Origin: a virus
Virus record (IMG/VR): IMGVR_UViG_3300036715_002244
Location: 1 to 41,883 of that record
DNA: 41,883 bases
Reading direction: 5' to 3' (one strand)
The position numbers and the translations under genes were made by a program. The notes below the pieces were generated by a model. It had not been told where the DNA came from. It ran no database searches and was given only the letters and a program-made list of their open reading frames with translations. Of the stretch, positions 2,801-38,817 are shown one piece after another (position 1 is the first letter of the stretch; each line of letters opens with the position of its first letter).

Positions 2801-4298
2801 ATTGTAGCGTATCTGGTTTGCAAATATACAAATTGTTTTTTGCTCTTGTCATTCCTACATATTTAACCCGCCTAAAGTATTCAACATTGTTTGTGTCAAC
2901 ACACGAAGCGTCAAAATGCAAAAATACATCCTGAGCCTCTAAGCCTTTAGCTGTATGTATCGTTCCAATCTTTACATTTGGGTTAGCACCAAAAACTTCT
3001 TTATCAAAATTCCTTTTCCATTTTTCAAATTGCACTTGTTTTTCTTTTGTTAATAATTCTTTTATATAGCCTTTTTTAACATAATCAGCAAGTGTTCTGA
3101 AGAACGGCATCTCTTTGAGGTCGCTTGTGTTAAATGTGTTTGCACTAAAAAACTTCTTCAACATTATCCTACCGCCGTATCGTTCAGTGACACTGCCTTT
3201 TATCAAATCGATTACTGTATCCACATTCTGTTTACTTACTTTGATATTTTCTTTTTTTGTTAGCATTCTTAAAAAGATATAACCAGTTATCAAATTGGTT
3301 GGTGTGGTGTTTTTGCTATCTAATCTTGTCGCTAAAATGCCGTTCGCAAATAGTTTTTTATATAAATTCTCAAAGTCATTAATATAATATGTCAACAATA
3401 ATGTTTGCCTTTTGGGATTCAAAAAATTGATTATATTGTTATAGTCGATGTATTGCACACAACCATCATTGTGCAAACCTTGTATAAACATATATTTATC
3501 ACGAACCACATTCTTGCTGATTAATTCCATTGCTGCGTTTGATACTGCTTTTGAGCACCTAATTGATTGCGTTAACCTTACCGTTTCGTCTGCCTTGAGC
3601 TTGAGCATAACCTCAGGAGTGCTGCCAGCCCACTCAAAGATGTTTTGGTCAATATCTCCCGCAACTATCAATGTTTTACGGATATTGATATTCTGGATAA
3701 TCTTCCACATTAGCGGGGTGATGTCTTGAAATTCATCTATGATAACCGTGTCAAAAACGCCCTTGTAACGCTTTTTACCTTCAACTAATATGTCTGTATA
3801 GTCGTAGCCTGTTTCTTGCAGCAGTGCGTCAAATTTGTTGTATGTGGTGATATAGTCCTGCGGTGATACTGGCAAAAAATTATGCAAGACATATTGCTCA
3901 GGCGTCTCATCCATAAGTTTTTGGATACTAAAATGGCTATATAAAACATTGCCTAATGACTCGTTGGTCAGAAACTCAGGACTTCTAAATATCTCAACCC
4001 TGTTATCGAACGGCTCATATGCAATGTCTAACTTAGCAAACATATTCCTAATTTTGTGTTGTGTCAAAAAATTGCTTAATTTGAGCTCTCTTGAGATAAA
4101 AGAATGCAAGGTAGTAATTCTTATGTTCTCATTGTTTATTATGCTCTCTGGCAGTTTTTCGGCTATACTGGCTCTTGCAGACCTTGTAAAAGAAGTAATA
4201 AGTGTATAGCCAAGCTCATTGATGTTCTTCTCAATATATTTAGCCAGCCAGCGTGTTTTACCACTGCCTGGACAACCTAATACTTTGATTGTCTTCAT
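2799..4298 (-). CDS. Superfamily 1 (UvrD/Rep-like) DNA helicase
   Basis: 499 residues. Motifs occur in order: Walker A GCPGSGKT at residues 8-15, TSFTRSAR (Ia), TTLHSF, Walker B VIIDEFQDI, motif III AGDIDQNIFEWAG, LTQSIRCS (IV), a TIHTAKGLEAQDVF block (V) and VGMTRAKNNLYI (VI). These define an ATP-driven 3'-5' helicase of the UvrD/Rep/PcrA group. The protein is shorter than cellular UvrD (about 700 residues), so accessory domains are reduced. It is last in the leftward operon with annealing protein and terminase and overlaps the terminase stop by four bases, which suggests coupled translation. Likely role: replication restart or recombination. Confidence 0.88.
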   Translation of the reverse strand: MKTIKVLGCPGSGKTRWLAKYIEKNINELGYTLITSFTRSARASIAEKLPESIINNENIRITTLHSFISRELKLSNFLTQHKIRNMFAKLDIAYEPFDNRVEIFRSPEFLTNESLGNVLYSHFSIQKLMDETPEQYVLHNFLPVSPQDYITTYNKFDALLQETGYDYTDILVEGKKRYKGVFDTVIIDEFQDITPLMWKIIQNINIRKTLIVAGDIDQNIFEWAGSTPEVMLKLKADETVRLTQSIRCSKAVSNAAMELISKNVVRDKYMFIQGLHNDGCVQYIDYNNIINFLNPKRQTLLLTYYINDFENLYKKLFANGILATRLDSKNTTPTNLITGYIFLRMLTKKENIKVSKQNVDTVIDLIKGSVTERYGGRIMLKKFFSANTFNTSDLKEMPFFRTLADYVKKGYIKELLTKEKQVQFEKWKRNFDKEVFGANPNVKIGTIHTAKGLEAQDVFLHFDASCVDTNNVEYFRRVKYVGMTRAKNNLYICKPDTLQ

Positions 4299-6064
4299 AA
4301 TATCCTCACTCCTGGTGTGTTTTTTATCCGATAAAACATCTCTCTAATCTTCATATCTTCTTTTTGTTCTTCTTCTGATTTTGGGTCGGTTTCATCTGGC
4401 AGTCTTCGTTCAATTTGTCGGTATAGTCTACAGGCTAAAAGCGCACCCATTACCCTATCGTCATTATGCCCTGATCTGGCAGATAATGTATCTTTTTCTA
4501 TGTTCTTTAATTCGTCAATCAGTTCTGGAGACCTGATAGTTATCATCTCACTTGATATCAAGCCCTTTAATATGTCTGTCATTAATTCTTTTTCTTCACG
4601 GCTTGTTTTGGTGCCCAATGAAGAAAATCGTGGAGACAAAGAATCAGCCCTGCCATAAAGATATGATCTTGATTTGCGGATATTTTTTGTAATTAGCTCC
4701 TGAATGTCTTTAATTGCTGAATCATATTGTATACTTTGTAGCATTTTAAATGCATCCTTCATTCGTCGTTGGACATTCATACCTGGACCCGTCACCTCAA
4801 CATTATATGCTGCTCCATTATACAAAGAGCATAAGAACGCCAAATAAAAAACCAGCTCATCTGAAGGAATAGAATTATCTACAAGCTCCGCCACCTGCAC
4901 TATCTGGCTTTTACTGGCCTTCCAGATGCTAATAACTGCATTATCGCTATCAGGATTAGCTGCTCCTGTTGGGTCACATCCAACAATATATGCTGCGCCG
5001 TTTTTTGGTAGTTCCCAGATAGTCAATGTTGGCTCGTGTGTTGTGAATATTCTTAGCCGTGAAGGTTGGAACTTCTCAAAATCAAGCCTAACCTTCAACT
5101 CGTATTCTATTTTTTTTGGTTCGTATATCTTTTCTAACTGTGCAAAATCATAGCACCTAAGCTCATTAGTTAGCTCCCAAGCTTCGTTTTCAGTCGAAGG
5201 ATATTCTTGTGCCATAGCTTGATCGTCACTTCCATAACTTTCGTGCAACTTCCAAAAATACCAAGCCCATTGCTCAGGCTGAATTTTATAGCCATACTGT
5301 TCCATAACCTTCCTTTGAATCTCTTCTGCATACTCTGATTCTGCTTCTTCTGCATATGTTTCATATATCTTTGACCGTTTATCTACTTTATATAAATCGT
5401 GATGCCACCAGCTTAAAAACAGGCTACAGGATGTAGCGCTAAACTTTGAATCTTCGTATTCAGTCATAAAGTGATTTTCACCGTGCGGTGAGCTTTCATA
5501 AATTAAATACCGCAATGGATTAGTCTCAGGCAGTGACGCCTGCAAGGCATTCAGTGGCAAGACATTGTCATAAAAAGCTACCTCAGTGGCGTGTAATGCC
5601 ACTGAGGATGAGCTTCTGCCTTCTGTTTCTGCGTCAGCTCCTCTGCTTTTGATTGCATAAAGCATTATCGAAGAGCCATTAGCAAATCGAATATTTGTAT
5701 TGTTGTTAATTAGCATTGGATGTTTTCTTTTCATTGTTGATAACATTTGGCTGTATCTTGAACGGAATTCTCCGAAGTATTTACCGTTATGGACTAAAAA
5801 CGATAATTCAAAGGCGTTGAACATCTGCAAAAAATACAGGTTAATCAGCATTGATTCTGTTGATATTGCTGACTGTCTGCATTTTAATATGACTATTTTA
5901 CTGCGTTCATCTGACTTCATTTTAAAGAATTGCTGACAAAAAAGCTTTTGGGTTAGGAGCTTATTCTTCCAGCTTTGTCTAACCCAGCCTTTTTCTTTTG
6001 TCGCAACCCACACATTAGAAGTAAACTTCAGATACTTCTTGAATTCATTATTCCAATCAATCAT
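4295..6064 (-). CDS. terL: Terminase large subunit
   Basis: 589 residues. The ATPase half has an atypical Walker A-like KCRQSAISTE and a Walker B-like ALHATEVAFYDN. The RNase H-like nuclease half has IVGCDPTGAANPDSDN (first acidic site), YNVEVTGPGMN (second) and GHNDDRVMGAL (third). This is the phage packaging motor and headful or end-cutting nuclease. It sits with ERF and helicase genes rather than beside the portal, which is about 25 kb away. It overlaps both neighbours by a few bases. Confidence 0.85.
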   Translation of the reverse strand: MIDWNNEFKKYLKFTSNVWVATKEKGWVRQSWKNKLLTQKLFCQQFFKMKSDERSKIVILKCRQSAISTESMLINLYFLQMFNAFELSFLVHNGKYFGEFRSRYSQMLSTMKRKHPMLINNNTNIRFANGSSIMLYAIKSRGADAETEGRSSSSVALHATEVAFYDNVLPLNALQASLPETNPLRYLIYESSPHGENHFMTEYEDSKFSATSCSLFLSWWHHDLYKVDKRSKIYETYAEEAESEYAEEIQRKVMEQYGYKIQPEQWAWYFWKLHESYGSDDQAMAQEYPSTENEAWELTNELRCYDFAQLEKIYEPKKIEYELKVRLDFEKFQPSRLRIFTTHEPTLTIWELPKNGAAYIVGCDPTGAANPDSDNAVISIWKASKSQIVQVAELVDNSIPSDELVFYLAFLCSLYNGAAYNVEVTGPGMNVQRRMKDAFKMLQSIQYDSAIKDIQELITKNIRKSRSYLYGRADSLSPRFSSLGTKTSREEKELMTDILKGLISSEMITIRSPELIDELKNIEKDTLSARSGHNDDRVMGALLACRLYRQIERRLPDETDPKSEEEQKEDMKIREMFYRIKNTPGVRIL

Positions 6065-22493: not shown

Positions 22494-23585
22494 CTATATA
22501 CCCGCCATAGTCGGTAAATTGATAAGCCTCATAGTTGCAGATGGTTTTTCACAAATAAGCTGACCGCCAATTAACAACACAAGCCCTTGAGCCTCAAAGA
22601 ATTTGCTAAATGTCAGGTCTATAATCTTTGAGACAAAAGCATCGTCCCTGTTCAACATCAATTTGATGTCTTGAGGATGGAAGAAGAACACTTGCCCTGC
22701 TGGTATAAGCCTGTCTGGAAACAAAAGAACATTACCAACCCTAACATATGGGATATTATATTCTCTTGCCCCCTCAAGGTTTAGTATTCTCTCTAATGAA
22801 TTGCCATTTACATCCTTAGTCAAAGAGAACATAATATAGCTTAGCGTTGCGTGACTGCAGAACCCAAACCTAAATGGTGCGATTGAGCCGTTATTCTGCT
22901 CATCGAACCAAATTTGAGAAGCGACTAACTGCTGATAAATTGGAATTGAGTTACCGTTAATCTTGAATGTGCTTGGGTCAAGCACTTTTGCGTTGAACCA
23001 GGGATAAGTAGTTCTGTTAATATTTTCTAACATCGTTACGCCTGTCTGTGTCGTATCATCGATAATGTTACCCAGCCCGTAGAAATCTGAGAAGTCCGTT
23101 ACAGTGGTATAGCCAACAAGGATATTGCTTAACTGCTGAATGATATTTTGATATAACTGCCCCATCCTTACTGCAATCTCATCGAAGAATGCATTAGGAT
23201 TATCTGCCAAAAGGTTAAGCTCGCCCCTTGTGACAGTAGCAGTAGTAATGTATTTTGCATCGTTACACCTGCCTGGTTGCGGGTTAGATGGTATAGATTG
23301 CTGTAGATCATATGCATAGGTATAATCTGTCTTCTGAAGTGGTGTAGAAGGATTGAGAGGCAAAGCATTAAATTCATAAAAGCTCTGACCTGGACTGCCA
23401 GGCATTACCTCTTTGTTCCTTAACAAACACTGAACGGCTGGTGATAAAAGTGGTGCTTGCTGTGTAACAACGCCTTTTAATACCTTCCTTGATAGGTTAT
23501 TAAAGATTGTGTTAAATGAACCAGAATAGCTTGGGTAACTCGCTCCTGGAATTGCGCCCCAAGAACCTTGAATAGCTGTTGGCAT
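22494..23585 (-). CDS. Major capsid protein
   Basis: 363 residues, a usual length for an HK97-fold capsid protein. It lies directly downstream of a coiled-coil scaffold-like gene and two genes before the adaptor. Features consistent with a shell protein include a long N-terminal arm, a central domain with the helix FFDEIAVRMGQLYQNIIQQLSN and a C-terminal FSKFFEAQGLVLLIGGQLI block. Assignment relies on order, length and composition. Confidence 0.8.
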   Translation of the reverse strand: MPTAIQGSWGAIPGASYPSYSGSFNTIFNNLSRKVLKGVVTQQAPLLSPAVQCLLRNKEVMPGSPGQSFYEFNALPLNPSTPLQKTDYTYAYDLQQSIPSNPQPGRCNDAKYITTATVTRGELNLLADNPNAFFDEIAVRMGQLYQNIIQQLSNILVGYTTVTDFSDFYGLGNIIDDTTQTGVTMLENINRTTYPWFNAKVLDPSTFKINGNSIPIYQQLVASQIWFDEQNNGSIAPFRFGFCSHATLSYIMFSLTKDVNGNSLERILNLEGAREYNIPYVRVGNVLLFPDRLIPAGQVFFFHPQDIKLMLNRDDAFVSKIIDLTFSKFFEAQGLVLLIGGQLICEKPSATMRLINLPTMAGI

Positions 23586-24544: not shown

Positions 24545-25093
24545 TTATACCTCCTCATATAATATATCGCCATCAAATGTATTGCCATTGATATTCAAGC
24601 TGTCTGTATATTGCCACATAAAGCCTTGAATATCGTCTGTATCACCCCATTCTGCGTTCCAAACAGGACAACCTAAAGACTTCCAATCAATATAATTAGT
24701 TAACCAATCATATGTAGCATATACCCCACCGTGTAACGGTGACAATTCTATTAAGAATGACTTTGCTATATCTGTCACATATTGTAATGGTATAGTTTTG
24801 TCTTCTAAATCATAAAATATTGGTAACTCTAACTGTATTCCCGATGTGTTCACAATATCTTTACAATTCCTTGCCTCAAACACTGCGTCTAAAGTGTTTT
24901 GTGCATAGGAATAATAATATCCACCAACCTTTAAGCCAACATTATGTGCATTTGTAACATTCTGCACAAACTTTTCGTCAATTCCTTCTTTGCCATAGCC
25001 AATCCTGACCATAACAAATTGAATGCCGTTCTGAGCCAAAATGCTGTAATCAACATCGCCATTCCAAACACTTACATCAACACCTTTTACCAT
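24545..25093 (-). CDS. GH25 lysozyme endolysin
   Basis: 182 residues, a complete GH25 catalytic domain without wall-binding module. GVDVSVWNG (Asp6) opens the barrel, FYDLED carries the catalytic pair Asp95/Glu97, and WQYTDS followed by FDGDI closes it. GH25 enzymes are muramidases. No signal peptide is present, so release needs a holin. The GH25 type is commonest in phages of Gram-positive bacteria but occurs elsewhere. Confidence 0.88.
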   Translation of the reverse strand: MVKGVDVSVWNGDVDYSILAQNGIQFVMVRIGYGKEGIDEKFVQNVTNAHNVGLKVGGYYYSYAQNTLDAVFEARNCKDIVNTSGIQLELPIFYDLEDKTIPLQYVTDIAKSFLIELSPLHGGVYATYDWLTNYIDWKSLGCPVWNAEWGDTDDIQGFMWQYTDSLNINGNTFDGDILYEEV

Positions 25094-25650
25094 CTAATCT
25101 CCCCTTCCACGCCCAAATAGTTATGCCACTGGTCTGTCTTTATCTCAGCGTCAAGTATTCCTAAGGATACAGGATTGCCTTTGATTGTTGCCATTTGTCT
25201 TGTTATTCCTACAAAATATAACCTATTAGGAATAACCCCAATATTCAAAGAATTTTTCTTCTCTAAGTTTATGCGGTATACATCAACCTTTGTTGGTTGA
25301 GGCGTGATGATAGTTTTATCAGCCACAGGCAGTTTAACTGGAGCAGTGTTAGTATTTATCTGTTGTTCAACCCTTTTTGCAGCCTCGTTCGGATTTTGAG
25401 CAACCACAGTATATGTAATAACAGGTGGCTTTTGTGCAACCTGTTCTATCCTCATTATTATCTCTTTAGCTGTATCCTGTGACACATCAATTGCTTTTGA
25501 GATATTATTAGCAGTTAATTTGTCAGAAGGTATGACAACTACGCTATTTGCTTTATTAAAATGAAAATAAATGAAGACAAAAATAATAACCACTAATAAT
25601 ACTTCAACAATTGTTCGTATATGCTTTTTTAGGAAGGTTAAGATAAGCAT
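25087..25650 (-). CDS. Membrane-anchored periplasmic protein (spanin-like by context)
   Basis: 187 residues: basic cap, one N-terminal membrane helix (about 11-30, TIVEVLLVVIIFVFIYFHF), then an extracytoplasmic helical and Pro/Thr-rich stretch and a beta-rich C-terminus ending VEGEIRW. It sits between a coiled-coil membrane protein and the endolysin and overlaps both. An inner-membrane anchor with long periplasmic part suits an i-spanin or envelope linker, but there is no lipoprotein partner. Confidence 0.6.
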   Translation of the reverse strand: MLILTFLKKHIRTIVEVLLVVIIFVFIYFHFNKANSVVVIPSDKLTANNISKAIDVSQDTAKEIIMRIEQVAQKPPVITYTVVAQNPNEAAKRVEQQINTNTAPVKLPVADKTIITPQPTKVDVYRINLEKKNSLNIGVIPNRLYFVGITRQMATIKGNPVSLGILDAEIKTDQWHNYLGVEGEIRW

Positions 25651-25874
25651 TATCGTCTCACCAGAGAACTAAATAGACCAAAAAATGCTATAGCTACTGA
25701 ACCAATTGCTACCATAACTGCAATCGCCCACTTAGCACCTTGTAGTTGCCCAAGCACTTGCTGGAGCATCTCTTTTAGTTCCATTAGTTCTTTAACTTGG
25801 TTTCGTAGCTCTTCTATATATTCTTTCTGTATTTCTATCTCTCTTTTAAGCAACTCTAAGTCTTTATCGTCCAT
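25650..25874 (-). CDS. Coiled-coil plus C-terminal membrane helix (holin-like)
   Basis: 74 residues. Residues 1-45 form an acidic coiled coil; residues about 49-70 are a membrane helix followed by VRR. This matches the XhlA/hemolysin-type layout in phage lysis cassettes. It ends on the first base of the next gene. Confidence 0.65.
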   Translation of the reverse strand: MDDKDLELLKREIEIQKEYIEELRNQVKELMELKEMLQQVLGQLQGAKWAIAVMVAIGSVAIAFFGLFSSLVRR

Positions 25875-25895: not shown

Positions 25896-26687
25896 TTAAA
25901 AAACCACCCCCGTCAAGATAGAAGTAATATGCAAGCTGCCATTACCAAAGTAATACAGGCCTGCATAAATATTTTTAGTAATGTGATAACCAACTTCCAA
26001 TTCGTTCGTTCTGTAATGGTCAATTCGATTAGGAATCATTGCGGTTGATGCTAATCCTCTTGCATATAAATGATGATTATCGTATTCCAAACCATACACA
26101 ATACCTGTTCTGTGATGGTCGATGAATCCTACGACAGTACGGGTGTCAGATGGTGTTATAAATGTGCCATCATATCCACCGACAACTGCTATGTCTTGGT
26201 AAACCTTTTTAGCTATTAAAAGCTTGTAGTCGTTTACCATCGTAGTGTTATAGCTTATTGGACTATCACCATATGGAGTATCCTGTCTTGTATACTTCAA
26301 AGATATCTTCCAATTTTTATAAACATATGAAGGCTCAATATAAAACAACGATGTTTTGCCAACCCAACCGCCAGTATTGGTATATGGATTGCGTTGTAAA
26401 TCTCCTACCATCTTGATGTTTGGATTTGCATTTGCTACACCGATAGAAGACAACACTAAATAAACCATTAATAATCCAATAGCATTGTAAATGATGTCTT
26501 GTAAGCTATCTCTTAATGGCTTAATGCCGTATTTTAGTTCTATATATTGTTCGTAAATTCCAATACAAAAGGTTATCGACATTGCCTTCCATAAACTTAT
26601 ATCAAGGTTAAATAAGATAAGGAATACTATAACAGTGCCTAAAATATGCTTTGCTATATGTCTGGAAGTATCATCGAATAACTTCAT
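25896..26687 (-). CDS. Multi-helix membrane domain fused to probable outer-membrane beta-barrel
   Basis: 263 residues. Residues 1-90 hold two or three hydrophobic helices, including a DSLQDIIYNAIG motif; the last helix runs into IGVANANPN, which looks like a signal-peptidase site (ANA, then Asn). From about 95 to 263 the sequence is short alternating beta-strands with aromatic girdles (FYIEPSYVY, KISLKYTRQ, NELEVGYHI, NIYAGLYYFGNG) and ends LTGVVF. A terminal Phe after an alternating strand is the hallmark of Bam-inserted outer-membrane barrels, here about eight strands. Either the chain is cleaved into an inner-membrane part and a barrel, or it bridges both membranes. It sits among lysis genes. 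I know of no such fusion family. Confidence 0.65.
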   Translation of the reverse strand: MKLFDDTSRHIAKHILGTVIVFLILFNLDISLWKAMSITFCIGIYEQYIELKYGIKPLRDSLQDIIYNAIGLLMVYLVLSSIGVANANPNIKMVGDLQRNPYTNTGGWVGKTSLFYIEPSYVYKNWKISLKYTRQDTPYGDSPISYNTTMVNDYKLLIAKKVYQDIAVVGGYDGTFITPSDTRTVVGFIDHHRTGIVYGLEYDNHHLYARGLASTAMIPNRIDHYRTNELEVGYHITKNIYAGLYYFGNGSLHITSILTGVVF

Positions 26688-26877
26688 TAGGTGGCTCTCC
26701 TTTCGGACTGTTATATACGCTGTTTATAGCGTGAATTCCTATCTTTGGCACAATAACTGACAAATACAACTGCATAAGCTGACCTAAATCAAACATAGTA
26801 TGGTGCAAGGCATTTGATAGCCAAGCTATTAACCAAATTACTACAAAGAAGATTGTGATTAGATTGCCTTTAAACAT
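26671..26877 (-). CDS. Small membrane protein, candidate holin
   Basis: 68 residues from ATG 26877, which overlaps the fibre stop (TAATG); a GTG three codons earlier is also possible. N-terminal membrane helix (LITIFFVVIWLIAWLSNAL) and a second weaker hydrophobic segment (QLYLSVIVPKIGI). First gene of the lysis block. Confidence 0.6.
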   Translation of the reverse strand: MFKGNLITIFFVVIWLIAWLSNALHHTMFDLGQLMQLYLSVIVPKIGIHAINSVYNSPKGEPPNEVIR

Positions 26878-28172
26878 TAAAACCACGCTAAATCAATCCA
26901 CTTAGTATTGCCATCATTTGTATGCATCACTACCCAAGCTGGATTAATAGAAGAGGGTCCCGAGTCAAATGTATTGCCACTTTGAACAGTGACTGTTAAT
27001 GCGCCAGATGATCCTGTTGAATTTCTGCTAGTTATTACCATACTGCCAGCAGGATATGAATTTGCAAGTGGCAAGGTAAGCGTGCAAGACGCAGTTGCAC
27101 TATAAACCTGCCAACCAACAACTGCAGGAGCTGTTGTGTTTGCGTTTATTGTAGTTACACTTACCACAGGTTTTGGTTGGTTGTACCACAAGTGATGCCA
27201 AGCGTTTCCACCATCATTTACTAAACAATGCATTCCCTGTGGTAGTATCACTGTACTACCATCAATGCTACTAGATGATGTTAATGTTAAAGTATAGCTA
27301 CTTTGATTAGATATTATTACTTGCATAGTATAAGCAGCTACTACATTTGCTGCTGGAAGTGTCCAAGTAGCATTTGAACTACCAGTAAAAAAGAATAGTC
27401 GTGAACCTTGAAATGTTGGGACTGTATAATTTCCACTGGATCCCCCAGTGTTTTCTACTAATGTGTTATTTACATATACCAAATTACTTCCATTAGATAC
27501 TGCTTTTGTTCCAACAGCACCTATAGATGTTGTTCCAGTGCCTCCTAATGAAGCAGGTAACGGTGCATTAACATAAGTTAGGTTAGTGCCGTTGGATACT
27601 GCAATGCTGTTATTAGAACCTATGGTTGATGTCCCAGTGCCTCCTGAACTTGCAGGTAAAGGATTAACATAAGTCAGATTAGTGCCGTTCGAAATAGCTA
27701 CTGAACCATTAGCACCAATAGATGTAGATCCTGTGCCACCATTAGCAACAGGCAACACTTGAGGATTTGGATTATACCAAGTCTTATTACCATCGCTAAA
27801 GAATAACATAGTGCTACCAGGTGACATTACAGTAGCACCAACTATAGTATCAGCACTATTGCCGTTTGATACTATAGTTAAATTAGCCGTTGATGAACTT
27901 GAATTGCTAATAGCTAATATGCCAGGATTAGCATTATTTGTGTTGGCTATCGGCAGCTGAACAGTTGCTGCCGATGATACAGTAAACACATTCAAAGAAC
28001 CAAAAGCACTAATTATAGCATTGCCTGTGTATTGGTTGATAGTGTTTACTGTAGTGCTTGCAAGATAAACAAAGTTATTGTCAAGCAAAGCAGCAGGAAC
28101 TTCTGCCTCGCCAATTGAATTTGTCGGATATCCAGACAGACCTAAATTGGCAAATGTTACTGGCAAGGACAT
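26877..28172 (-). CDS. Tail fibre / receptor-binding protein with tandem GGTG repeats
   Basis: 431 residues, beta-rich, Ser/Thr/Asn-rich. Three tandem units of about 32 residues carry GGTG(S/T)(T/S)(S/T)IG, then (A/V)SNG(T/S)NLxYVN, a pattern common in phage fibres. The C-terminal 95 residues (TLPLANSYPAGS, then GNTFDSG, WIDLAWF) resemble the whole protein encoded by 28174-28497. It is probably a trimeric adsorption fibre. Confidence 0.8.
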   Translation of the reverse strand: MSLPVTFANLGLSGYPTNSIGEAEVPAALLDNNFVYLASTTVNTINQYTGNAIISAFGSLNVFTVSSAATVQLPIANTNNANPGILAISNSSSSTANLTIVSNGNSADTIVGATVMSPGSTMLFFSDGNKTWYNPNPQVLPVANGGTGSTSIGANGSVAISNGTNLTYVNPLPASSGGTGTSTIGSNNSIAVSNGTNLTYVNAPLPASLGGTGTTSIGAVGTKAVSNGSNLVYVNNTLVENTGGSSGNYTVPTFQGSRLFFFTGSSNATWTLPAANVVAAYTMQVIISNQSSYTLTLTSSSSIDGSTVILPQGMHCLVNDGGNAWHHLWYNQPKPVVSVTTINANTTAPAVVGWQVYSATASCTLTLPLANSYPAGSMVITSRNSTGSSGALTVTVQSGNTFDSGPSSINPAWVVMHTNDGNTKWIDLAWF

Positions 28173-29176: not shown

Positions 29177-30781
29177 CTACTTCTTTTGCTTGCCACCGTG
29201 AGCACCTCCTTTGAATTGAGCTTCAGCTTGTTCAATGACAAGCTCAGGATGTTCTTGGAATAACTTAGCCTGTGCCGCTTCTTTTTCTTTTAATTCTTTT
29301 ATAATGTCATTCTGTCGAGGTATTGGTAGAAGTTTGACTAACAAGTCAGGTGATATAATGCCTGCTTGTGCCAATTGGAATATCATACCTGTATATTGGA
29401 ATTGAGTAATCGGCGACGTTGAGTGCGAATCTACTTTTATTCTGTAATTGTCCAAATCGCCATATTTATCAGCGTGTATTATCTGATAAGATTGAGCGTA
29501 TAACATCATTATTTCTTCTATTGCACTCTCTACTCTCAAAGCCTTCTTTTTAAGAGGAGCTGAAGCAAAGGACGCAAGCAAGCCTTGCTGACCAGCACTT
29601 CTTACATTCGATGAGGCTCTACCTGCTAATGTCTCATTCAAACCTGATATCTTCTCGAATGCTTGCTCATAAAAGCGCTTAACCTCATAAGCAACCTTTG
29701 GATCAAGCTTTGGAAGATATGGTTCCATTTTTATGTCTTCGCCTGGAAAATCAATAACAGCTCCTGGTTCTGTTAGCTTGTCTTTGTTCTCACTTGATAC
29801 CTCACTTGACATAATGCCTGAGAATATTATTGGAGGCTTTGCCAAAAGCTCCATTACCTTGTCGCCTCTCTCTTGGTTCTTGTTTACCATATCCTGAAGA
29901 TGAACAAGATAATAAAGCTCACTCATACCCCAAAAACTCTTAGGTTGAGGATTTAAACATATATTAACAAATGGTAAACGCCCTTCAACACAAGGATTTA
30001 GCCCCTTGTTGACAATTGTATCGTTGATTATTGTATATACATAATAGTCTGATATAGTTTTGCTTTCGTCAGTAGAAGATTTATCTGGAATATCCTCTTC
30101 CCATACCCACAATTCGTATATCCTTACAAGCTTTGCAGTGCCGTGCTGGTTCATAATAGAACGAGCGTCATTGCCATAAGGCGCTGCATAAAAATATCCC
30201 TTCGAACTGCCATATGCAGTGAGAGGCTCTTCTAAAAGGTCATCTAATAAACCAACCGATTTTTCAGACACTAAAGCGCTATTAATCAATTCTTCTGGAT
30301 ATTGTCTTCTTAAAATATCATAAGGAATGTATTTGATATGGCATACTGCTTGTGAAGTATCATCCATCTTAGGAATTGTTGTATATCTAACGCCTATCTC
30401 ATATGGGAATACTGTCTCAATCTCAACATTCTTGCCAGTAGGATAGATTTTAAGGAATTGGTTGCCAAAAGTTAACGCATTTTGGACTTCATCATAAAGA
30501 AGTAGGTTAATATTATCTGAATAAAATCTATCCTGAATAACATCTCTGAATTGTTGTTCAACGGGCGATAATACTTCATATTTGTGATTTTTAAAATAAT
30601 CAAGCACAACATTCTCAGATAAATAGATAAGTGATACAACTTCATCTAAATGAGCTTTTAAAAGGTTTTCGCAAGTGTCATCTTCATATGCAGACAAAAA
30701 GTGGTTATACATTTTCTTGCGGTTATCTAAATTTTCTAGACATTCATCTTTTATGTCTATTATTTCTTTATCTGTTCGCAT
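29177..30781 (-). CDS. Portal protein
   Basis: 534 residues, standard for podovirus portals. A helical N-terminal region, wing-like alpha/beta domain and a C-terminal block with NETLAGRASSNVRSAGQQG and long helices are typical of T7/P22-type portals. It forms the dodecameric DNA gate to which terminase docks. Unusually, the terminase gene is far away in another operon. Confidence 0.85.
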   Translation of the reverse strand: MRTDKEIIDIKDECLENLDNRKKMYNHFLSAYEDDTCENLLKAHLDEVVSLIYLSENVVLDYFKNHKYEVLSPVEQQFRDVIQDRFYSDNINLLLYDEVQNALTFGNQFLKIYPTGKNVEIETVFPYEIGVRYTTIPKMDDTSQAVCHIKYIPYDILRRQYPEELINSALVSEKSVGLLDDLLEEPLTAYGSSKGYFYAAPYGNDARSIMNQHGTAKLVRIYELWVWEEDIPDKSSTDESKTISDYYVYTIINDTIVNKGLNPCVEGRLPFVNICLNPQPKSFWGMSELYYLVHLQDMVNKNQERGDKVMELLAKPPIIFSGIMSSEVSSENKDKLTEPGAVIDFPGEDIKMEPYLPKLDPKVAYEVKRFYEQAFEKISGLNETLAGRASSNVRSAGQQGLLASFASAPLKKKALRVESAIEEIMMLYAQSYQIIHADKYGDLDNYRIKVDSHSTSPITQFQYTGMIFQLAQAGIISPDLLVKLLPIPRQNDIIKELKEKEAAQAKLFQEHPELVIEQAEAQFKGGAHGGKQKK

Positions 30782-31278: not shown

Positions 31279-31773
31279 CTATTTTTTCTTACTGTAAATA
31301 ATATTGTCTGGGATATCGTTGTAATTTATCCAAAAAAAACTTGCGTTGCTTGACGATGGTCTTGTGTGGCTTTTAATTATTTCTTCGTAAGAGTATTTGG
31401 ACAACCACATCAAAAAATCAAATGTTTTGAACAAATACCATTTTTCAATATCAGTCTCTTCGTTGTTCCAATATCCGTGAAAATAAAATTGAGTGCCTAA
31501 ATTAAATAATTCACCTTGTTCTTCCGTGAATCTATTTTGCAAACATTCAACTGTAAAAGTATTATATTTAACAAATTTGTTCCGTAAAACTTTTTCTTGT
31601 CCTATAAGTTTTATTTTGTTAGACAGTTCGATAACTACATCTATATGATATTGTTTATCTAAAATATTCCCCTGTGTTCTTACTATTTTACAATCAGGGA
31701 ACACTAATCGATATATGTTGTCTATTAGCGGTTCAGCTTTGTGCGATAACTCTAAATCATCTTTAAAACTCAA
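31279..31773 (-). CDS. Hypothetical protein paired with methyltransferase (possible nuclease)
   Basis: 164 residues. A YHIDVVIEL strand followed by KLIGQEKVLR faintly resembles a PD-(D/E)XK core (Asp, then QEK), but the spacing and final ExK are not convincing. It overlaps the methyltransferase by 11 bases. The pair could be restriction-modification, or it may be an unrelated small protein. Confidence 0.55.
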   Translation of the reverse strand: MSFKDDLELSHKAEPLIDNIYRLVFPDCKIVRTQGNILDKQYHIDVVIELSNKIKLIGQEKVLRNKFVKYNTFTVECLQNRFTEEQGELFNLGTQFYFHGYWNNEETDIEKWYLFKTFDFLMWLSKYSYEEIIKSHTRPSSSNASFFWINYNDIPDNIIYSKKK

Positions 31774-33154
31774 TTCTGCACCCCAGTGATTCGGCTATTT
31801 TTGCATTCTCTTCATTTATCTCACAGCCTACCGCTTGCCTTCCTAATTTTGCTGCTGCCGTTAGAAAAGTGCCTGTGCACGCAAATAAATCTAACACTTT
31901 GGCATTCGGTTCTGTTGTTTGTCTTATTAACTGCTCCGCAAGCTCTATAGGTTTTTGCCAAGTGTGGAAACGGTTACCCAACCTACCATCTGGCGCATTG
32001 AATTCCTGAACGGCAAATGTTTCGATTGCAATATTATTATGGTTTAATGGTTTTGAGTTTTTTGTATATAAGTGCAAAATAAATTGGTAATTTAAGTTAT
32101 ATTTATTTTTTGGCGGCAATAAATGAGTATTTTTATAAGTCCAAACCAATGGGTTGTCTAAAATAAATTTATCTTGGTTTAGTAAAATATCTAAATAAGC
32201 TTTGATTTCGACTGGATAAGCGCCTATAAAAATAAAAGCCCTACCATCGGATTTGATTTTTTTTAAGGCAGACAATACCCAAGAATTTGCAAAATCCACG
32301 ATATCATCAACATCTGTTGAATAAGGCGGATCAGTAATAAGCAAATCAAATTCTTCATCGTTTAAGGTTTGTAAGTAATCTCTGCAATCGGCTATATGGA
32401 TTACGGGTTGGTTGTTAGAAACATTAGAGTTCAGTCTGGATATATACTGTTGTTGCCTTTGCAAAAGCTTTGTATTATCTTTCCGCGCTTCTTTAATCTC
32501 TTTTGCTCTCTTAATAATCTCTCTCTCATCAAGGTTTTTAATAATCTCCTTTTGCTCTTCTTTTGGCAACTGCGATATTATCTCTGCTGTGTTAATAGTT
32601 AGCTTGCCGTCGGGATTCATAAGTTCTTGCTTAATCTCATCAACTACATTTGATTCAATCTTTTTAACTTTAAAAATAGTATCACGACTAATACCTGCTA
32701 ATTTTGCAAGCTCTTTGGCGGTGTTAATAGATTCGACAGTTTTGTCTGATTTCAGACTAAACTGTTCGGCATTATTGTTCGGGTTTAACTGCCTAGCTTT
32801 TTGCATCGCAAGCTGTTTGTTTTTTAAGGCTAATTCGGATAATGTTGATTCTAACTTTAAAACAAGTTGTGCTTTTGTATAATCAGTTATATTTCTGCGA
32901 CCTAATTGGTTTTTAATAATAAAGATAATCGCTTGGTTTTCGTCATCAAACTCAAGTTCTTCAAATGTAAAAGGTATATTGTGTTTTTGGCAAATTGCAT
33001 ACCTATTATGTCCGTCAATGATTATATTGTTCCATACAAGAATATGCTCTCTAACTCCGTGCTCTTTTATGCTTTCTTCCAAAATTTTAAACTCATCAGC
33101 TGTTAACGGCGGAATTAGATTTTTGAATTTGTCGTTGATTTTTAGCTCATTCAT
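31763..33154 (-). CDS. ParB-like domain fused to DNA methyltransferase
   Basis: 463 residues. Residues about 12-100 are a ParB/Srx-type nuclease domain (IIDGHNRYAICQKHNIP, GRRNITDYTKAQL), followed by a helix-turn-helix (145-165, LAKLAGISRDTIFKVKK) and a long helix. The C-terminal part is an N6-adenine/N4-cytosine methylase of beta order: DPPY at 275-278, then a DLFACTGTF S-adenosylmethionine motif near 425 and QAVGCEIN. Such fusions protect phage DNA from restriction. Target sequence unknown. Confidence 0.88.
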   Translation of the reverse strand: MNELKINDKFKNLIPPLTADEFKILEESIKEHGVREHILVWNNIIIDGHNRYAICQKHNIPFTFEELEFDDENQAIIFIIKNQLGRRNITDYTKAQLVLKLESTLSELALKNKQLAMQKARQLNPNNNAEQFSLKSDKTVESINTAKELAKLAGISRDTIFKVKKIESNVVDEIKQELMNPDGKLTINTAEIISQLPKEEQKEIIKNLDEREIIKRAKEIKEARKDNTKLLQRQQQYISRLNSNVSNNQPVIHIADCRDYLQTLNDEEFDLLITDPPYSTDVDDIVDFANSWVLSALKKIKSDGRAFIFIGAYPVEIKAYLDILLNQDKFILDNPLVWTYKNTHLLPPKNKYNLNYQFILHLYTKNSKPLNHNNIAIETFAVQEFNAPDGRLGNRFHTWQKPIELAEQLIRQTTEPNAKVLDLFACTGTFLTAAAKLGRQAVGCEINEENAKIAESLGCRIEF

Positions 33155-38094: not shown

Positions 38095-38817
38095 ATGGTA
38101 TTAGAAAAAACAGCAGTTGATGTAAGAATTTTAAAGCCCGTTAAAAGGGCTTTAAAAAAAGTAATTAAATTCAGTGATAAAAACACTGAAAAAAACATGC
38201 ATGGAGTAAATTTTAAAACGATTAACGATGAATTACTAGTTGCAACGACCGACGGTTTTAGACTTGTAATTTATACAATAGACATTAAACAAATACCTAA
38301 TTTAGAAATGAATTTTACAATTTCTATTAACGATGCTAGAAGGTTGTTAAAAGCTACAAAAATAATGGAATCATTTCAGACTGAATCTGAATTGGTTGTT
38401 ATTACTTCAGATTCAGAAATTAGATTAGCAAAAATTGAAAAACCTTACCCAAATTATTTAAAGGTGACTGAGCAAATAACCGACGACCTTCATTTTTCTT
38501 TTATGGTTGATAGAAAAAAGCTTTTAGATACTATTATCAAGTTTAAAGATACTAATTTGATTGAAGTATCTTTAAAAGATAATGCACTATATATTGAATC
38601 AGAAAAAGTTTATATAACAGCAACGACCGTTAAAGATTTTAATATTGAAATAAGACCTTCATTTTTAATTGAAGGTTTAAAACTATTTGATGATGAATTA
38701 ATTTATTTTTCTTATAAAAAAACTAGTAAATATTCTAATCATTATTTAATAGTGATGAATAACAGTGATATGTTTACTGATTATGAATGGATCCATTATT
38801 TTACAGCTTCTAAATAG
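38095..38817 (+). CDS. Two-domain sliding-clamp homologue (lacks DnaN domain I)
   Basis: 240 residues. It aligns with the full clamp (1625-2707) from domain II onward: KNMHGVNFKT against SKMGGVNIKT, TTDGFRLVIY against ATDGFRLALY, LEMNFTIS against LDMNFTIS, KPYPNYLK against YEYPNYEK, and a matching C-terminal block (IEGLKLFDDELIYFSYK against ISGLRIFDTEDVLFTYK). Domain I is absent, and a GGAGTG site just upstream of a normal ATG indicates a real start. Two-domain subunits could build a six-domain ring as trimers, as PCNA and T4 gp45 do. It is AT-rich, unlike the next two genes. Confidence 0.85.
   Translation: MVLEKTAVDVRILKPVKRALKKVIKFSDKNTEKNMHGVNFKTINDELLVATTDGFRLVIYTIDIKQIPNLEMNFTISINDARRLLKATKIMESFQTESELVVITSDSEIRLAKIEKPYPNYLKVTEQITDDLHFSFMVDRKKLLDTIIKFKDTNLIEVSLKDNALYIESEKVYITATTVKDFNIEIRPSFLIEGLKLFDDELIYFSYKKTSKYSNHYLIVMNNSDMFTDYEWIHYFTASK

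Follow-up and report, generated by a model that had tools for sequence, protein, structure and literature searches.

Introduction

Spanins are known in two kinds, each of which requires an outer-membrane lipoprotein, and Kongari et al. noted that an outer-membrane protein (OMP) could in principle serve as o-spanin (PMC6139136). Negativicutes, a class of Firmicutes that possesses an outer membrane (PMC5007114, PMC5491611), have no Lol components (PMC5491611). The outer-membrane proteome of Veillonella gave no sign of lipid-modified proteins in a test that is not conclusive (PMC5491611, PMC11784454), and outer-membrane lipoproteins are reported to be absent in diderm Terrabacteria (PMC11784454). 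Since Lol is missing and outer-membrane lipoproteins are reportedly missing too, a spanin of the lipoprotein type would probably fail in Negativicutes. In the literature searched, no description was found of how phages of these bacteria open the outer membrane. A host protein of related design is the elongated MlaD of Veillonella parvula, in which an inner-membrane transmembrane (TM) domain is joined to a ten-stranded C-terminal barrel, with support from fractionation (PMC10665443).

Here we analysed a 41,883-base IMG/VR virus record over its whole length (the window) and focused on one gene of its lysis cassette, P0001. The window and 66 related cassettes point to specific candidate genes for opening this outer membrane, chiefly a neighbouring gene of family phrog_10797 and secondarily P0001. 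We tentatively read P0001, at somewhat less than an even chance, as a lineage-specific accessory inner-membrane protein of a Negativicutes-phage lysis cassette, with a soluble beta-rich domain that is probably periplasmic.

Results

The P0001 gene and its cassette

The open frame of P0001 (263 amino acids) lies exactly at 25896-26687 as previously claimed, on the minus strand, which the preliminary description had left unstated. The codon log-odds per codon were 0.10 in this frame versus −0.06 and −0.12 in the other frames, and a ribosome-binding site read from the sequence, AAAGGAGAG (26695-26703, minus strand), stands upstream of the ATG at 26687. P0001 is a real gene.

The block is transcribed leftwards in the order of a 431-aa gene taken for a tail fibre, a 71-aa holin-like gene (26671-26886), P0001, a 74-aa gene (25650-25874), a 187-aa phrog_10797 gene (25087-25650) and a GH25 lysozyme gene, the endolysin (24545-25093; PF01183, E 5e-23), the last five all on the minus strand. 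The 71-aa protein matched by phmmer (E 3e-4) the protein at 5087-5365 of locus L160, from another Negativicutes phage, which itself matches phrog_28789 at 1e-19. The 74-aa protein has an XhlA-like layout, a coiled coil and a C-terminal TM segment (residues 49-71), with a weak match to the hemolysin family phrog_1193 (E 0.041). With holin-like, coiled-coil/TM, phrog_10797 and GH25 genes around P0001, its assignment to a lysis cassette was fair. The suggestion that P0001 is cut to release a holin part found no support, the 71-aa phrog_28789-like upstream gene being the likelier holin. P0001 as a whole was also considered and rejected for this role, as a 176-aa tail follows its helices and the adjoining 71-aa gene fits better; P0001 is unlikely to be the cassette's holin. 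In the lysis cassette of the other Negativicutes phage, L160 4300-4590 encodes a 96-aa protein with a signal peptide and a DUF2279/YfiM-like match that is below the cut-off (Pfam E 0.024).

Only chance-level matches to P0001 were obtained in the Pfam, PHROGs and NCBIfam profiles, by tblastn in INPHARED, in two pattern scans of viral contigs, in GTDB contigs, in 380 Negativicutes and 398 Bacillota genomes, in 28 phage records with the phrog_10797 neighbour gene and among PDB sequences. The P0001-like design was likewise absent from the 66 loci carrying phrog_10797. Because relatives are lacking and the 66 loci do without it, P0001 would be an accessory or fast-evolving gene and no standing part of the cassette. 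Cassettes of this type can do without it, as it was seen in none of the related cassettes that we examined.

Phages often carry accessory genes of the moron type. P0001 might be a late superinfection-exclusion or surface-modifying membrane protein that merely sits within the lysis block; its orphan status and its absence from all related cassettes speak for such a gene, but it has no similarity to known exclusion families in PHROGs or Pfam and is placed inside the late block of lysis genes, whereas exclusion genes are usually expressed early or during lysogeny. We consider this origin unlikely.

The phage itself has no close relatives by portal, terminase or capsid, and the best portal matches are about 27% identical; the portal (29177-30781), capsid (22494-23585) and terminase (4295-6064) have distant relatives only. 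By these comparisons it represents an unsampled lineage. The window also carries two homologues of the DNA sliding clamp DnaN on the plus strand (1625-2707 and 38095-38817), the second of which (240 aa) aligns with the family profile in its central and later part only, and no DNA polymerase was recognised among the window proteins scanned. At 31763-33154 (minus strand), a ParB-like N-terminal half, identified by tblastn to phage ParB, is followed by an N6/N4 DNA methylase domain; the closest full-length matches of this protein are in the Methanoculleus viruses Blf4/L4768 (29% identity).

Host class

GH25 enzymes are frequent in phages of Gram-positives, which explains why a diderm host had been proposed with hesitation. 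Three proteins of Selenomonadales, with 40-44% identity, were the nearest relatives of the phage GH25 found in GTDB contigs. The 187-aa neighbour matches phrog_10797 at E 1e-23, and this family has matches in 48 of 200 Negativicutes genomes versus 0 of 14 control genomes. The GH25 relatives and the phrog_10797 distribution therefore support a diderm host well, on evidence different from that first offered, and judging from these matches the phage almost certainly infects two-membrane Firmicutes, the Negativicutes. Two chromosomal GH25 genes of Selenomonadales (L086 6773-7657 and L087 3364-4266), whose identity to the phage lysozyme is 44%, are close to ribosomal protein genes and outside any obvious prophage, with a repeated C-terminal motif, AQNLIHNILSNR.

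N-terminal helices and topology

The N-terminus of P0001 had been described as multi-helical, and two clear transmembrane helices bear this out while a third is doubtful. Helix 1 (residues 11-33; 26589-26657, minus strand) and helix 3 (residues 65-85; 26433-26495, minus strand) are likely to be transmembrane, with good hydropathy and insertion energies of −0.3 and −0.8 kcal/mol on an approximate scale. Helix 2 (residues 32-53; 26529-26594, minus strand) carries K34, E46 and E50, and the middle stretch (residues 30-48 by hydropathy) is not predicted to insert (+2.2 on the same approximate scale). AlphaFold, run on the single sequence, drew three helices (6-27, 32-53 and 56-85) at pLDDT 50-59. 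A VanZ/YfiM-like pattern that we spotted by eye in the helices was rejected, since the VanZ profile score was at the level of shuffles (910/1905); P0001 had no Pfam match to the VanZ or DUF2279 (YfiM) families.

Two spans would leave the tail in the cytoplasm, while three would export it and expose Ala85-Asn-Ala87. The charged residues between helices 2 and 3 (K52, K56 and R59) speak for three spans, so that export of the tail is more likely on the sequence. The Ala-Asn-Ala reported earlier is indeed present at residues 85-87 (26427-26435, minus strand); it is a putative signal-peptidase site that would be reachable by the enzyme only if helix 3 runs from in to out.

If only helices 1 and 3 span, the beta-rich tail would be cytoplasmic and P0001 could be, for example, a membrane-tied regulator. 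The poor insertion of the charged helix 2 is what such a topology predicts, but the charges at 52-59 suit a loop on the cytoplasmic side that joins helices 2 and 3, giving three spans, and with a cytoplasmic tail the Ala-Asn-Ala site would be purposeless. A cytoplasmic tail is regarded as rather improbable.

The C-terminal tail

The tail (residues 88-263; 25899-26426, minus strand) is beta-prone above 98% of 475 comparison proteins, contains 14% aromatics and no cysteine, and ends in Phe. The proposed aromatic beta tail with a final Phe thus held for its composition over 176 residues, but not for its strand alternation. Amphipathic alternation over the whole tail was no better than in shuffles (p = 0.09). 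In the last strand it was 0.25 versus 1.53 ± 1.07 in host OMPs, a value that 40% of ordinary proteins equal, and the claimed likeness to the strands of BamA substrates was not confirmed. A terminal aromatic alone is weak evidence of a barrel, because 12.5% of the open frames of at least 150 aa here end in F, W or Y. The C-terminus also fits the loose C-terminal pattern used by BOMP, as do 6% of ordinary proteins.

As references we used OMP_b-brl, autotransporter, Omp85 and MlaD proteins of Negativicutes, with about 475 further proteins of phage and host loci for comparison. A composition-based feature classifier separated OMP_b-brl perfectly in cross-validation and placed P0001 between the classes, at 0.2-0.4; scores this high occur in 2-11% of ordinary proteins, and some autotransporters and Omp85 score as low. 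A home-made barrel grammar of alternating strands and of loops, both short and long, was trained by EM with entire families left out of the training and recognised the held-out Omp85, autotransporter, OMP_b-brl and MlaD families. Order z against own shuffles was 1.5-7.7 for held-out genuine barrels and 0.4-1.6 for P0001, which 6-30% of ordinary proteins reach, and the P0001 score was below nearly all held-out barrels, yet among the highest 2-11% of ordinary proteins. MlaD is the fairest control, as it combines an inner-membrane helix with a ten-stranded C-terminal barrel in the same bacterial class. Among held-out MlaD tails, 22 of 23 had an order z of 2.8-5.5, the one failing tail being probably a wrongly picked frame, versus 1.0 for P0001, within the range of ordinary proteins. 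Nearly all Negativicutes Omp85, autotransporter and MlaD tails end in F. HHalign found no similarity between the P0001 tail and Negativicutes OMP_b-brl. The AlphaFold check asked for in the preliminary description gave the three N-terminal helices and was uninformative on the fold of the tail, whose pLDDT was about 30 from a single sequence without homologues.

Consequently, the claim of a barrel, and with it the fusion of helices to a barrel, finds no support in a test able to recognise held-out barrels, including those of the same architecture in Negativicutes MlaD. Because the models are home-made and the tail has no homologues, an outer-membrane barrel is disfavoured, rather than refuted, by this modelling. 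A small outer-membrane barrel made of the tail, released by a cut at Ala87 and inserted by BamA while the helices stay behind as a membrane peptide, would account for the Ala-Asn-Ala after helix 3 and for a final Phe as in host OMPs, and the tail falls within the lower tail of the autotransporter and Omp85 classifier scores. The low order z, the last strand without the host pattern and the lack of similarity to host OMP_b-brl count against it, and we hold it to be a poor prospect.

The phrog_10797 neighbour and the spanin question

The phrog_10797 protein has one N-terminal TM segment followed by a folded alpha/beta domain (pLDDT mostly above 90 for residues 61-130), which topology would place in the periplasm. 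A W, F or Y is the very last residue in 53 of 54 nonredundant members (background 12.5%); a beta-signal reading of this terminal aromatic found no support, the alternation of the last residues being at the level of ordinary proteins. An endolysin homologue lies within 1.5 kb in 51 of the 66 phrog_10797 loci, as counted with endolysin queries drawn from the same loci. When the model was used for a fold search, no PDB fold stood out and one phage relative was found in BFVD.

The neighbour thus shows features of an i-spanin, namely an N-terminal inner-membrane TM segment, a presumed periplasmic domain and a lysis-cassette setting, but no o-spanin lipoprotein was found nearby in the 66 cassettes. 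A scan of these for lipobox proteins with a ribosome site gave no convincing partner, and none was found in the window cassette. The absence of Lol and outer-membrane lipoproteins, together with the missing lipobox partner, makes another outer-membrane solution likely. As lipoprotein spanins are improbable here and no such partner was found, the phrog_10797 protein is a better candidate than P0001 for a lipoprotein-free spanin. Among the proteins of Negativicutes phages it is a strong candidate for an as yet undescribed outer-membrane lysis protein. That these phages breach the outer membrane by a lipoprotein-free spanin system built on phrog_10797, here perhaps helped by P0001, is a speculation to which we give a small chance.

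The idea that P0001 is itself an uncleaved one-protein spanin, bridging from inner-membrane helices to an outer-membrane barrel, has a precedent in V. parvula MlaD and would suit hosts without Lol or outer-membrane lipoproteins and a window cassette without a lipobox partner, but it is very improbable, as held-out MlaD barrels pass the grammar test that P0001 fails, nothing evident in P0001 could cross the periplasm between residue 87 and the first strand, P0001 is absent from other phages with the same cassette, and the neighbour at 25087-25650 is the better spanin-like candidate.

Discussion

The accessory inner-membrane protein that we tentatively prefer starts from what was observed of P0001: the gene, its cassette position, its helices, its beta-prone tail and the host class. 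Two or three helices would anchor it in the inner membrane, and a soluble beta-rich domain would be displayed, most likely in the periplasm. P0001 would then act on the envelope late in infection, as a lysis auxiliary or in the exclusion of other phages. Export of the tail, its solubility and any function are what we infer beyond this; solubility, read from the negative outcome of our home-made barrel model, carries low confidence. Absence from the 66 phrog_10797 cassettes, the 28 phage records and the 380 Negativicutes genomes fits an accessory gene. Counting against this reading, the Ala-Asn-Ala and the C-terminal Phe are expected traits of an exported barrel, and a non-spanning helix 2 would leave the tail cytoplasmic. 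P0001 may assist phrog_10797, exclude other phages, or do something unrelated.

Among known systems, the elongated V. parvula MlaD (PMC10665443) shares with P0001 an N-terminal inner-membrane helix and a C-terminal beta domain, and, like P0001, almost every Negativicutes MlaD tail has a final Phe. MlaD differs by its MCE domain, its long helical bridge from membrane to barrel, its strong barrel-grammar scores and a ten-strand barrel modelled with confidence, none of which P0001 has. T1 gp11 and other unimolecular spanins (PMC6139136) are likewise lysis-cassette membrane proteins with a beta-rich part; they carry an N-terminal lipobox and one C-terminal TM segment, whereas P0001 lacks a lipobox and has its helices at the N-terminus, and its assignment to the T1 gp11 type was rejected for this. 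The phrog_10797 neighbour shares with P0001 the cassette, an N-terminal membrane anchor and a C-terminal aromatic, but it is unrelated in sequence, widespread in Negativicutes phages and predicted to have a folded alpha/beta periplasmic domain. Beside these, P0001 appears from its sequence to be a one-of-a-kind membrane protein, without a relative in any collection searched.
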